Notes under the pieces: generated by a model
Database searches by the model: none
What the model was told of the DNA's origin: nothing
Seen by the model: the letters and a program-made list of their open reading frames with translations, nothing else
NCBI RefSeq assembly: GCF_002688565.1
Contig: NZ_CP024011.1
Location: forward strand, 2,480,001-2,544,000
Direction of reading: 5' to 3'
Length of the DNA: 64,000 bases
DNA from: Acinetobacter sp. LoGeW2-3
GTDB taxonomy: Bacteria > Pseudomonadota > Gammaproteobacteria > Pseudomonadales > Moraxellaceae
Made by a program: the position numbers and the translations under genes
Shown: positions 42,798-47,223 of the stretch, in pieces
How positions within the stretch are numbered: position 1 is the stretch's first letter
Layout: each line of letters starts with the position of its first letter

Positions 42798-44590
<1,793 letters not shown>

Positions 44591-44862: not shown

Positions 44863-45279
44863 TTAAATCTGAAAGCCAGAAATATCTTGAGCGATTTTTT
44901 TAGTACAGTATAGTAGCTGTCCTAAAAGTACGTCACTGGATGTCATTATTAATATTAGCATAGGGTATTTTTGATGAGGAATAGCAGTTAAGATTGCTTT
45001 ACCATTATTAGCATCTAGTGTAATGCTTTGGCAGCCTTCAAGTTGTAATTCCTGCATAAATGCTTGAACCATAGCCACAATGGAACTACTTACTGCAGCA
45101 AGTTTTCCTTTACCATTGGTTTTGATTTTCTCAAATGAAGCCAATTCAAATCCATCTGAAGAGCAGAGCATAGTGAGTTCTACGCCTTGCACATTCAGTA
45201 AGAGTTCTTGAATCTGCTTGGCTGCAAATTCTGTTAATTCCTGTGGAGCAGTGCGTTTTGCGAGATCATTTAAGGACAT
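44863..45279 (-). CDS. Roadblock/LC7-domain protein B
   Basis: 138 residues. A helix at the start is followed by the Roadblock pattern QGVELTMLCSSDGFELASF, a middle helix (KLAAVSSSIVAMVQAFMQEL), then ITLDANNGKAILTAIPHQ and YPMLILIMTSSDVLLGQLL. Roadblock proteins regulate small GTPases as exchange or activating factors or as localisers (MglB, CvnB). Last gene of the four-gene cluster, 10 bp behind the GTPase gene. Confidence 0.82.
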   Translation of the reverse strand: MSLNDLAKRTAPQELTEFAAKQIQELLLNVQGVELTMLCSSDGFELASFEKIKTNGKGKLAAVSSSIVAMVQAFMQELQLEGCQSITLDANNGKAILTAIPHQKYPMLILIMTSSDVLLGQLLYCTKKIAQDISGFQI

Positions 45280-45289
45280 GGACTTTTCT

Positions 45290-45826
45290 TTAGGCAGTGA
45301 GTTGGACTTCAGCTTTTGCGATTAGAGCATCAACTAGCATTAACACATCATTTTTTTCACGGGCATCAATAAAGAACATTGGATGAATGCAGTCCTGATT
45401 TTCAGCCCAGTCATGATAGAGCGCAGCATTATTTTTAGCTTTTTTATCAATATGGGTAATGCCAATGACAACGTTTTTAACTTTATCCTTAAAATAATCT
45501 AGGTAAAATTCTAACTCTTGTAATGGCTCATCAATACTGTCATCAATGAGGAGGATTACTCCAATTGCTCCTTGTGTGATCACGTTCCAGATAAAGTCAA
45601 AGCGTTGTTGGCCTGGCGTGCCGTATAAGCCCACTTTGATGCCATCCTCTAGCACGAGTTCACCGTAATCGATTCCCACTGTAGTTAGTGACTTTTGGTG
45701 GGCCTCAAGATCGGTATTAATTGCTTCGGTACTTAATACATCAATATTAGAGATGGTACGAATAGCTGTGGTTTTGCCAGCACCCATGCTACCAGCAAAT
45801 ACCAATTTAAATTGGTGCAGGATCAA
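45290..45826 (-). CDS. Small Ras-like GTPase of the MglA/CvnD type
   Basis: 178 residues. G1 is FAGSMGAGKTTAIRTI, the switch-II segment reads YGTPGQQRFDFIWNVI (Gly-Thr-Pro-Gly-Gln, typical of the prokaryotic SRPRB-like GTPase group), G4 is the variant ITHIDKK and G5 is IDARE. No lipidation or membrane segment is seen. It lies between two Roadblock-type genes and the unknown 323-aa gene, so it is probably the switch of this module. Confidence 0.85.
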   Translation of the reverse strand: MILHQFKLVFAGSMGAGKTTAIRTISNIDVLSTEAINTDLEAHQKSLTTVGIDYGELVLEDGIKVGLYGTPGQQRFDFIWNVITQGAIGVILLIDDSIDEPLQELEFYLDYFKDKVKNVVIGITHIDKKAKNNAALYHDWAENQDCIHPMFFIDAREKNDVLMLVDALIAKAEVQLTA

Positions 45827-45838
45827 ACTAAATTACTC

Positions 45839-46810
45839 CTAGATACCGAGCTTCTTGCGTAATTTGCTAAAGAAACTCATCATTTTATTACCTTGCTTTT
45901 GAATAGGATCGGTTGCATTTTTGAAGAATTTGGCTTGATCGGATGATATAGGTTCAAGCATATTGGCGAGTTGTGCAGTGCATAAGAATTGATGAATATA
46001 TTTTTCACCTAATTTCAGCTGTTGTTGTGCATAAGCAACAGATGAACCTTCGCTAAAAAGCGCAGCTAATTTGAATAAGTCTTTGCGTTCTTCAAAGTTC
46101 TTGATCTGTGGCCATTTTGTTAATCTGTAATAGTCTGGATATTCAAGGTTTACAAACTGCAGGTGACACCATACAAAATTCCAGATTCCTTGATTGAGGT
46201 CTTCTGGGCGTGTTTGTGTACGGAATTGTACAATACTATTTAGATCTGCAGGTTCTATGCTTAATTCTGTATTGGAATTTGGATACCAGTCATTTGCTGG
46301 ATAGAAACAATGTTGTTCTAGATCGATAAGTGCAACACGTTCATCACCATTTTTGATCATGTATTTGCTATGACCTGAGGATTGAAATAGCTCATCCAAT
46401 ATTGATCTAAATGACTGATACGCTATTTTTGCACTGTACGTCGAAGTTGTTGGTGTTAGTTGTGTGATTGTATGAAGTCTTTGAGCACCTGACAAAAACT
46501 CATCTTGTAGCCATTCAACTAAAGCATGGGGCTGTTCAAAAGGTAAGAACAATGTGTCCTCAATCACCTGAGATGACAGCGCAGGATTCTTTTCGACTTG
46601 AAGAATTGTAAGATTATTATCTTTAATTTTTTGAATATGGGGTAAATCAATAAAGTCCTTATTTACTAATAAAAGCTGCAATTTCTGGTCAGTAAGATTA
46701 GTCCATACCAGATTATATTTTTCACTCAAAACATTCATCATTGTACTTTTAAATACATTGATTAAAGAGAGGCTGAGTCCAAAAATGGAAATATGGAGAG
46801 TATCTTTCAT
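45839..46810 (-). CDS. Unknown 323-aa protein in the Roadblock-GTPase operon
   Basis: No family is recognised. Residues ~1-110 alternate strands and helices (HISIFGLSLSLINVFKS, LQLLLVNKDF, NLTILQVEKN), suggesting a Rossmann or receiver-like domain. The middle is aromatic-rich (NDWYPNSNTELS, GIWNFVWCHLQFVNLEYPDY). A helical patch (LFKLAALFSEGSSVAYAQQQ) could be a winged-helix. The end is a basic amphipathic tail (KMMSFFSKLRKKLGI) that could touch the membrane. The gene ends 12 bp before the GTPase gene. Confidence 0.75.
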   Translation of the reverse strand: MKDTLHISIFGLSLSLINVFKSTMMNVLSEKYNLVWTNLTDQKLQLLLVNKDFIDLPHIQKIKDNNLTILQVEKNPALSSQVIEDTLFLPFEQPHALVEWLQDEFLSGAQRLHTITQLTPTTSTYSAKIAYQSFRSILDELFQSSGHSKYMIKNGDERVALIDLEQHCFYPANDWYPNSNTELSIEPADLNSIVQFRTQTRPEDLNQGIWNFVWCHLQFVNLEYPDYYRLTKWPQIKNFEERKDLFKLAALFSEGSSVAYAQQQLKLGEKYIHQFLCTAQLANMLEPISSDQAKFFKNATDPIQKQGNKMMSFFSKLRKKLGI

Positions 46811-46825
46811 AATGATGTACTCAGT

Positions 46826-46854
46826 TTAAGAGCTACCGGAAAAGTAGCTCTTAA
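46826..46854 (-). promoter_or_regulatory. Intra-operon hairpin between Roadblock A and the 323-aa gene
   Basis: A perfect 11-bp stem TTAAGAGCTAC/GTAGCTCTTAA with a 7-nt loop. On the minus strand no T-run follows, so it looks like an RNA-stabilising or processing element rather than a terminator. Confidence 0.65.
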
Positions 46855-46863
46855 ATGGCTTAA

Positions 46864-47223
46864 TTAAGCGAAATCTAAACCTTTTTCAAAGCGTTTTAAT
46901 TCGTGACGCGCCATGGCAAGGTTGGCACGGCTACGGTCAAGAACTAAGTAAAGGAACAAAGTTTCGTTTGAATCAAGTGGACGTAGCAAGTGATATTGCT
47001 TGCCTAAAGTGATTAGAATGTCTTCGATTGAATCATTCAGATTCAGGCTTGCTGCTACACGACGTTTCGCACGTACAACTTCTGTGTTACCTGCAGCTGC
47101 AAGTTCAAGATCAATTGTATTGTTGCCAAGAGTTGCCAATGCAAGACCGCTGTCGCTGTCTACAAGTGCTGCTGCAACGAAACCATCAGTATCTGTAAGT
47201 GCATCTAAAGTAAGCTTAGCCAT
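46864..47223 (-). CDS. Roadblock/LC7-like protein A
   Basis: 119 residues from the ATG at 47221-47223, preceded by GGGGA. An upstream in-frame start would add 27 hydrophobic residues and is less likely. The pattern [78 protein letters not shown] is that of a Roadblock domain. Codon use suggests good expression. It is first in the cluster and separated by 53 bp from the next gene. Confidence 0.78.

Follow-up and report, generated by a model that had tools for sequence, protein, structure and literature searches.

Bacterial small Ras-like GTPases are understood in only a few organisms, and the locus described here raises the question of what kind of switch is formed by such a GTPase encoded with two Roadblock-type proteins and a larger protein, X, and what that switch acts on. 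The locus lies in a stretch of 64 000 nucleotides from Acinetobacter sp. LoGeW2-3 (NZ_CP024011.1, positions 2 480 001 to 2 544 000; hereafter the window). The four ORFs reported in the initial annotation were confirmed. All are read in one direction, with RblA (119 aa) first, then X (323 aa), the small GTPase (178 aa) and finally RblB (138 aa), separated by 53, 12 and 10 bp. The locus had also been said to lack a kinase, and none was matched among the four proteins (Pfam) or recognised by reading among the neighbouring ORFs. A promoter and terminator scan gave predictions no commoner than in shuffled sequence. Experiments on the module in Acinetobacter were not found in the literature searched, which largely excluded subscription papers.

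Table 1. Features of the module, with positions in the window and the basis of each assignment
Feature	Position	Strand	Basis
Four-gene module	44863..47223	minus	All four ORFs present, one direction
RblB, 138-aa MglB-type Roadblock	44863..45279	minus	Pfam, alignment, profile match
Small GTPase of 178 aa, probably MglA Group 3	45290..45826	minus	TTG start; motifs; TIGR00231
X, 323-aa input-adaptor protein	45839..46810	minus	AF2 model
X residues 307-323, conserved basic amphipathic C-terminal tail	45842..45892	minus	Charge and moment statistics
X residues 242-287, winged-helix-like part of adaptor domain XC	45950..46087	minus	Model
X residues 131-216, middle region XM	46163..46420	minus	Model secondary structure, domain profile
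X residues 1-108, receiver-like domain, degenerate in Acinetobacter	46487..46810	minus	Model strands and helices
RblA-X spacer with hairpin, 12-bp arms by exact match	46811..46863	minus	Folding energy against shuffles
RblA, 119-aa Roadblock-fold protein, first gene	46864..47223	minus	AF2 model, Foldseek, identity across loci

The profile searches that had been proposed as a check gave matches over the cut-off for two of the proteins, RblB with Robl_LC7 (32.5 bits, cut-off 23) and the GTPase with ATP_bind_1 (34.7 bits, cut-off 27). The GTPase, whose TTG start codon is preceded by AGGAG, also matched TIGR00231 at E 4.9e-9, below the cut-off of that model. Its motifs are a P-loop GSMGAGKT, G2 TTVGIDYG, G3 GTPGQ, G4 THID and G5 DAR, and the earlier description as MglA/CvnD-like was right. 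The protein carries all four signatures tested for MglA Group 3, namely GTPGQ in G3 (YGTPGQ), Thr instead of Arg in G2 (SLTTVGIDYG), a G4 without the usual Lys (THID) and DAR in G5. For the alignment, 22 of 77 rows were chosen. In the GTPase tree, which was built without the sequences of PMC4316618, the window protein grouped with 29 proteobacterial rows at a 93/92 branch, which falls below the starred level; the other side of this branch held L150 and the rows from Streptomyces, from Deinococcus-Thermus and from the BLUF-linked loci. In RblB, the Asp-Gly pair (D42, G43) was present in all 29 rows chosen for its alignment, for which 28 of 60 were taken, and its profile matched the CvnB5 structure 3leq at E 3.7e-7.

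The partner of such a GTPase has been described before. Group 3 MglA modules of the beta- and gamma-proteobacteria were reported in 2014 by Wuichet and Sogaard-Andersen, and the part of that survey available (PMC4316618) describes one or two MglB proteins and an unnamed partner with a receiver-like N-terminus, a variable linker and a winged-helix C-terminus. The main text makes no mention of Acinetobacter. X gave no match at E <= 1 against Pfam or NCBIfam, in line with its having been called unrecognised. Since Foldseek also gave nothing at E <= 0.001, the fold was assigned by reading the secondary structure of the AF2 model (pLDDT 86.9, pTM 0.60). In the model, strands and helices alternate in the N-terminal part, and a WP motif (residues 233-234) stands just before predicted helices at 242-253, 258-265 and 269-281 and a strand at 285-287. 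On this reading, X would have both the receiver-like N-terminus and the winged-helix C-terminus of the Group 3 partner. The lower-ranked Foldseek matches include CpaE-type pilus-assembly chains (probability 0.96-0.98, E 0.035-0.1, TM to target about 0.5). The initial annotation had X replacing the usual partners, a claim that must be withdrawn, as a protein of this build is the standard partner in Group 3 in the available part of PMC4316618.

Two features of X stood out in the alignment, for which 65 of 77 rows were chosen. Among the 14 rows shown, those from Acinetobacter carry Asn or His where the strand-3 Asp would stand, and they lack the strand-5 Lys. At the other end, the last 14 residues of 66 proteins have a mean charge of +4.7, compared with 0 +- 1.6 for random 14-mers from the same proteins, and a hydrophobic moment of 0.42 against 0.24 +- 0.12; the corresponding values for the window protein are +4 and 0.33.

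RblA scored 16.6 bits (E 0.0068) against Robl_LC7, below the cut-off of 23. Its AF2 model (pLDDT 89.5) matched Roadblock and MglB structures in Foldseek, with a best E of 4e-7 and a query TM of 0.73-0.82 in 49 of the 50 matches listed, the exception being MglC (7ct3, 0.55). The two Roadblock proteins claimed earlier were retained, RblB by Pfam and RblA by its predicted fold. On these grounds, and with the Asp-Gly pair of RblB, the locus shows the Group 3 trait of having one or two MglB partners that carry a conserved Asp-Gly. The start of RblA is most likely the ATG at 47223 and not the upstream TTG; Met occupies this column in 49 of 50 RblA ORFs from the named loci. Across the 44 loci holding all four genes, mean identity to the window was 77.9% for RblA and 58.5, 51.2 and 28.0% for the other three components, and RblA was the most conserved of the four in every one. 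It is still 54-60% identical in five plasmid copies (Streptomyces, Comamonas and others), and the alignment rows (28 chosen of 43 listed) are all 118-119 aa long. In the annotated records of relatives examined, the protein is labelled hypothetical. So strongly conserved a protein without annotation suggests that a component common to these systems has been overlooked in several phyla. A Streptomyces neighbour of RblA combines weak DUF4388 and DUF742 matches in one protein, both under the cut-off.

The spacer between RblA and X folds into a hairpin with a minimum free energy of -18.0 kcal/mol (z -5.84). Arms of at least 7 bp were found in 26 of 35 RblA-X spacers, which are mutually related, as against a mean of 4.5 and a maximum of 9 in 60 shuffled sets. 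The codon bias of RblA is higher than that of its neighbours. The hairpin and the codon bias together suggest that RblA is produced in excess.

The distribution of the module was then considered. Relatives of X were present in 62 of the 99 genomes of the genus, a conservation beyond this strain that the earlier reading required, and the GTPase in 63, the extra one being a 37-residue match; X and the GTPase co-occur in the identical 62 genomes. In 77 of 80 named loci and 19 of 20 genus regions, the adaptor domain was encoded close to the GTPase gene and on its strand. In the class, the search gave 93 GTPase places besides the window, of which 85, and one added, were examined and seven left out. 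Of 80 class regions, 65 had a GTPase that the greedy ORF caller detected, and in 49 of these the adaptor lay nearby on the same strand; in the other 15 regions the caller overlooked the GTPase. With all ORFs considered, the GTPase was recovered in L075 and L144, and it lay within a longer ORF in L091 and L145. The association of the four-gene set is far beyond chance. The canonical four genes occur in A. celticus (L173), for example, and some Acinetobacter copies consist of X and the GTPase with no Roadblock recognised. Ten neighbours from six Acinetobacter loci were searched against Pfam; two gave no match and the remainder were housekeeping, regulator, transporter or mobile genes. Elsewhere, the Methylobacter relatives adjoin genes for O2-type sensors (hemerythrin, protoglobin, PAS) and a Thermus plasmid relative adjoins a protoglobin gene.

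The C-terminal domain of X is a portable adaptor, which is new in this analysis. In relatives the input part is either a BLUF blue-light domain or a GAF-HisKA_2 (GAF-histidine-kinase) part, the latter directly upstream of a GTPase. For the BLUF type, nine loci with all four genes lie in a single gammaproteobacterial genus and one lies on an Agarilytica plasmid. That XC is found with either of these argues for an input role of the N-terminus and a coupling role of XC. Of 14 aligned BLUF-adaptor proteins, six had their BLUF domain confirmed by Pfam, the other members being assigned by alignment. Within the approximately 3.6 kb examined, the loci L289, L290 and L291 had no module partner and L288 had no GTPase, and the XM profile gave no match to the shorter BLUF versions. 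All four BLUF-linked GTPases have GVPGQ in G3 and are separated from the window protein by the 93/92 branch; they form a separate clade and do not clearly belong to Group 3. Because these GTPases differ in motif and tree position, evidence from the BLUF-linked loci may not fully carry over to the window. Tentatively, and with the balance of our judgement somewhat against it, the loci could be seen as a plug-in G-protein platform in which XC and the hyperconserved RblA are fixed and the input varies, and with it the GTPase subfamily, in which case the GTPase of the BLUF version would be a bacterial Ras-like GTPase switched directly by blue light. A literature search for BLUF, Roadblock and GTPase returned only an optogenetics review, and among the matches listed in a broader search none had BLUF. 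For experiments, the BLUF-bearing relatives have the advantage of an input that can be switched at will.

A possible output is the type IV pilus. A PilT-family gene was present in all 64 GTPase-positive class genomes, compared with 245 of the 305 others (Fisher p 3.5e-6, ignoring kinship and genome size). The family is common overall (309 of 369 class genomes), and the model used also matches the control E. coli. FliG, counted in GTPase-positive genomes only, was present in 39 of the 64. Snodgrassella has a Group 3 mglA, and mutation of an orphan mglB there changed spreading and gut colonisation, from which the authors infer altered pilus-dependent motility (PMC11112851, in the part available). 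No pilus gene was seen adjoining the module in the Acinetobacter flanks examined, and since 37 of the 99 genus genomes are without X, the module is unlikely to be essential for pili.

Taken as a whole, a membrane-associated MglA Group 3 input switch acting on type IV pili has, in our judgement, an even chance of being correct. The receiver-like N-terminus of X would take the signal, probably through protein contact instead of phosphorylation, given that Acinetobacter has lost the acceptor residues. XC, with its WP motif, winged helix and basic amphipathic tail, may keep the complex at the membrane and couple the input to the GTPase. RblB would be an MglB-type regulator setting GTP hydrolysis, and RblA, in excess, might either pair with RblB as a second Roadblock, somewhat as MglC does with MglB, or serve as a scaffold; the MglC comparison is not favoured because the RblA model fits MglB better than MglC. 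The GTP-bound GTPase would act on pilus assembly or placement. The membrane-proximal switch for surface motility suggested in the initial annotation is reasonable given the basic tail, the co-occurrence with PilT and the Snodgrassella data; its motility or polarity output is, for Acinetobacter, something we infer.

Three other explanations were weighed against this one. The GTPase could belong to a conservon-like switch whose output is cyclic-di-GMP, the envelope or metabolism and which merely occurs in piliated bacteria. The Streptomyces, Deinococcus and Thermus GTPases among the matches listed are 31-40% identical to that of the window, the plasmid stretch with the A. wuhouensis copy also carries an EAL-domain gene, and GGDEF or HD-GYP genes are close to the Deinococcus copies. 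The presence of PilT in every GTPase-positive class genome and the motility effect in Snodgrassella speak for a pilus output instead, and we consider this explanation doubtful. It is less probable again that X is a DNA-binding transcription regulator, with the GTPase and Roadblocks gating the winged helix and gene expression as the output. This role was suggested by the 2014 survey itself (PMC4316618, available part), and the predicted winged-helix region is consistent with it. However, this stretch is not strongly basic (its net charge is -1 in the window protein and averages +1.4 over the 66 proteins, with a range of -4 to +6) compared with the +4.7 of the tail, and for this reason the regulator was demoted to a rival. 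DNA binding is also less obvious where XC is fused to BLUF or a kinase part upstream of a GTPase.

The least likely of the rivals is that RblA is an independent, abundant Roadblock with an ancient function of its own, no regulator of the GTPase, which the other three genes have joined. Its identity, well above that of the other components in the same 44 loci, and its codon bias would fit this, as would two plasmids on which the nearest listed genes are a recombinase, a transposase or unrelated, in gene tables that are incomplete. Yet 15 of the 16 class genomes with RblA also carry such a GTPase (the exception is G247), RblA is in the neighbourhood in 48 of the 80 GTPase-anchored named loci, and in Comamonas it comes after RblB. 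The input switch acting on pili was kept as the preferred reading. A self-contained set of four genes in culturable Acinetobacter, its input adaptor encoded alongside, would make the signal route to MglA-type switches directly testable.

Among known systems, the window locus most probably belongs to the MglA Group 3 modules, with which it shares the GTPase signatures, one or two MglB proteins and the receiver-like/winged-helix partner; in the available part of PMC4316618 there was no mention of how strongly RblA is conserved, of the hairpin, of the tail or of swapped inputs. MglA Group 1, the Myxococcus type, has TVPGQ in G3 and, beside the Thr of G2, an intrinsic Arg (same source and part), both missing in the window GTPase. 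The M. xanthus MglA/MglB/MglC/RomR polarity module (PMC7949163, PMC12719032 and PMC6785124, each available in part) likewise consists of a Ras-like GTPase, an MglB-type Roadblock, a second Roadblock paralogue and a receiver-domain protein, but the receiver-type partner genes lie away from mglA, whereas X adjoins the GTPase gene. The actinobacterial conservons (CvnA-D) are alike in their Roadblock and in the oddities of G4 and G5; just before their GTPase stands a small DUF742 protein, in the position that X has here. They differ in that the window locus has neither a histidine kinase nor a DUF742 match in Pfam, X is a single protein and a second Roadblock is present; conservon (Group 2) membership was rejected on the missing CvnA histidine kinase. 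A profile comparison of XC with DUF742 gave a probability of 7%. Finally, in the Thermus PATAN (DUF4388)-GTPase-Roadblock-protoglobin locus and similar Deinococcus loci, the gene directly before that of the GTPase encodes a protein whose C-terminus has a basic stretch (annotated DUF4388 in Thermus) and which, unlike X, is without a receiver part. Profile comparisons of X or XC with these upstream proteins gave probabilities of 31, 16 and 12%, which is no more than suggestive of homology with the C-terminal part of X.

Four consecutive open reading frames on the minus strand, separated by spacers of 53, 12 and 10 bp, confirmed the four-gene set reported in the initial annotation. Each of X (the 323-aa input-adaptor protein), the GTPase and RblA was found as a single copy when the window's genome was searched. 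An insertion-sequence gene pair lies directly downstream of the module, and its istB end was 92–93% identical to elements annotated as ISAba8 family on Acinetobacter plasmids, among the matches listed.

Coordinates of the module genes and the adjacent insertion-sequence genes in the window
Feature	Position	Strand	Assignment
RblA	46864-47223	minus	Roadblock by fold; Pfam Roadblock 16.6 bits, under the cut-off of 23
X	45839-46810	minus	No family match in Pfam or NCBIfam
GTPase	45290-45826	minus	Group 3 signatures
RblB	44863-45279	minus	Pfam Roadblock, 32.5 bits (cut-off 23)
istA/istB	42798-44590	plus	IS21-type pair

Group 3 MglA systems were described in a 2014 survey of prokaryotic Ras-like GTPases (PMC4316618) as almost exclusive to the beta- and gamma-proteobacteria, comprising one MglA, one or two MglB and a partner protein that is receiver-like in its N-terminal region and winged-helix-like in its C-terminal region. 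Their GTPases carry GTPGQ, have Thr in G2 and DAR in G5, and often lack the Lys of G4. All of these features were present in the window GTPase, including the lack of the G4 Lys. In a tree of 46 GTPases, it was placed beside that of A. schindleri (94% identity), and these two grouped with 28 further proteobacterial rows at a branch whose support of 93/92 falls short of the starred level. Across this branch were the Streptomyces, Deinococcus-Thermus and BLUF-linked (blue-light sensor) rows and one other. Since the GTPase has all the signatures and groups with the proteobacterial rows, the module was filed as a member of the Group 3 MglA kind, its place in the survey's own clade being putative. 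The earlier interpretation, a membrane-proximal switch in which the 323-aa protein replaced the usual partners, was right in part; the system belongs to an already described kind.

Within Acinetobacter, X was present in 62 of the 99 genomes sampled and absent from 37, with up to three copies per genome. The GTPase was found in 63, namely the 62 X-positive genomes and one with a 37-residue match. Three layouts were seen: RblA-X-GTPase-RblB as in the window, X-GTPase alone, and GTPase-RblB-X-RblA. One module copy is carried by A. wuhouensis p1_010062, a plasmid typed as conjugative. Gene order is free, with gene content mostly retained: among the 80 GTPase-anchored named loci, an adaptor domain was nearby in 77, RblB in 62 and RblA in 48, and 44 loci had all three.

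Across the 44 four-gene named loci, RblA was the best conserved component, with a mean identity to the window of 77.9% compared with 58.5% (GTPase), 51.2% (RblB) and 28.0% (X), and it had the highest identity in every locus. Six aligned RblA relatives were 47–60% identical to the window protein, the lowest being from Agarilytica. RblA matches were found in 28 plasmid records, including Streptomyces, Comamonas, Deinococcus and Hymenobacter, and the annotated relatives in the records examined were labelled hypothetical. None of the three relatives tested gave a Pfam Roadblock match at E <= 0.1; the predicted fold of the window RblA is that of MglB. RblA was present in 16 of the 369 class genomes, 15 of which also had the GTPase, and in 12 of the 120 genomes of the phylum sample. 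Codon bias was higher for RblA (0.434) than for X (0.374), the GTPase (0.340), RblB (0.335) and flanking ORFs (0.343), these values being rough as the reference contained only eight sequences, drawn from two ribosomal proteins. A hairpin in the RblA-X spacer (z -5.84 in the window) was present in 26 of 35 cases compared with a mean of 4.5 and a maximum of 9 in 60 shuffled sets, a rough count given that the spacers are mutually related. On a Streptomyces plasmid (L311 2125-3845), a protein with weak DUF4388/DUF742 matches, a Roadblock protein and RblA form a row, and the GTPase was not among the genes listed beside it.

The AF2 model of X (66 aligned sequences, mean pLDDT 86.9, pTM 0.60) predicted a receiver-like domain (residues 1-108), which a linker of low confidence joins to a middle region (131-216), and then a winged-helix-like region (242-287) and a C-terminal helix (307-320). 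Foldseek returned no match to the model at E <= 0.001; CpaE-type pilus-assembly chains were found lower down the list (probability 0.96-0.98). Of the 14 rows shown, those from Acinetobacter have Asn or His at the position of the strand-3 Asp and lack the strand-5 Lys; the Thiomargarita relatives retain both of these phosphorylation residues. Over 66 proteins, the last 14 residues had a mean charge of +4.7 (controls 0 ± 1.6) and an amphipathic hydrophobic moment of 0.42 (controls 0.24 ± 0.12). The corresponding values for the window X were +4 and 0.33, and the winged-helix stretch was near neutral. We infer that the basic tail binds the membrane.

The C-terminal adaptor domain of X (XC) was present in 72 of the 369 class genomes, and its N-terminal partner varied. 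A BLUF domain (Pfam E 5.8e-20 to 7.5e-24) preceded XC at L143, L146, L140, in two L256 genes and in Agarilytica, where XC was assigned by alignment. At L075, the XC-ending protein starts with GAF-HisKA_2 and the GTPase is directly next. A first XC profile, built without BLUF rows, matched L143 (6e-6) and L146 (3e-4) and left L140 and Agarilytica unmatched at 1e-3. When all four were added, the resulting second profile matched 13 proteins from the BLUF family search (E 2e-5 to 5e-30), three being copies of its own rows and the others independent. The family search gave 17 loci in 11 of 21 family genomes; RblA-BLUF/XC-GTPase-RblB was complete in nine loci, or ten counting Agarilytica. At order level (1e-25), 8 of 109 genomes matched, all from the genus of the BLUF loci. 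In the 14 aligned BLUF-adaptor proteins, the BLUF Tyr and Asn were present in all and the Gln in 12, these being the photocycle residues. The BLUF sets share their layout, RblA and adaptor with the window module. Their GTPases (four in the tree) clustered together with 100/100 support at the end of a long branch, with GVPGQ replacing GTPGQ, and given this motif and their place across the 93/92 branch, may be outside Group 3. One genome has two BLUF modules in tandem (L256 3114-7931), the first consisting of RblA, BLUF-adaptor and RblB with the GTPase missing between. The window's genome encodes two short BLUF genes elsewhere (G000:C1:1129595-1129876 and 2424368-2424649; ORF lengths 173 and 144 aa), and the adaptor search of this genome matched X alone.

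Further arrangements were observed in relatives. Hemerythrin, protoglobin and PAS genes flank X-GTPase-RblB in Methylobacter, and a Thermus plasmid has the row DUF4388-GTPase-Roadblock-protoglobin. L104 4047-5546 and L262 365-1810 encode fusions of the GTPase with a Ser/Thr kinase domain, the latter based on a Pfam scan for the kinase and our own profile for the GTPase. One protein (L260 1251-2873) has one receiver-like part and two tandem adaptor domains. At L263, L265, L271 and L274, an X-type protein is directly followed by a Roadblock protein, with no GTPase within the stretch examined. In N. gonorrhoeae (L037 3457-6560), the coding sequence of the GTPase homologue is divided between two reading frames, and the locus appears broken; a putative FimV-like gene lies upstream.

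A PilT-family gene (TIGR01420) was present in all 64 GTPase-positive class genomes compared with 245 of the 305 others, a comparison that ignores kinship and genome size. FliG, counted among those 64 alone, was found in 39. The PilT co-occurrence fits a pilus output of the module. To the described kind, the analysis adds an exchangeable input, a strongly conserved Roadblock protein (RblA) without annotation, and a testable four-gene format. An experimental hint on Group 3 output comes from Snodgrassella, where mutation of an orphan mglB located outside the operon led to motile flares on soft agar and gave the bacterium an advantage in the gut of a non-native bee, which the authors read as altered pilus-dependent motility (PMC11112851). 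In Myxococcus, MglA drives the formation of type IV pili at the leading cell pole (PMC11580455).
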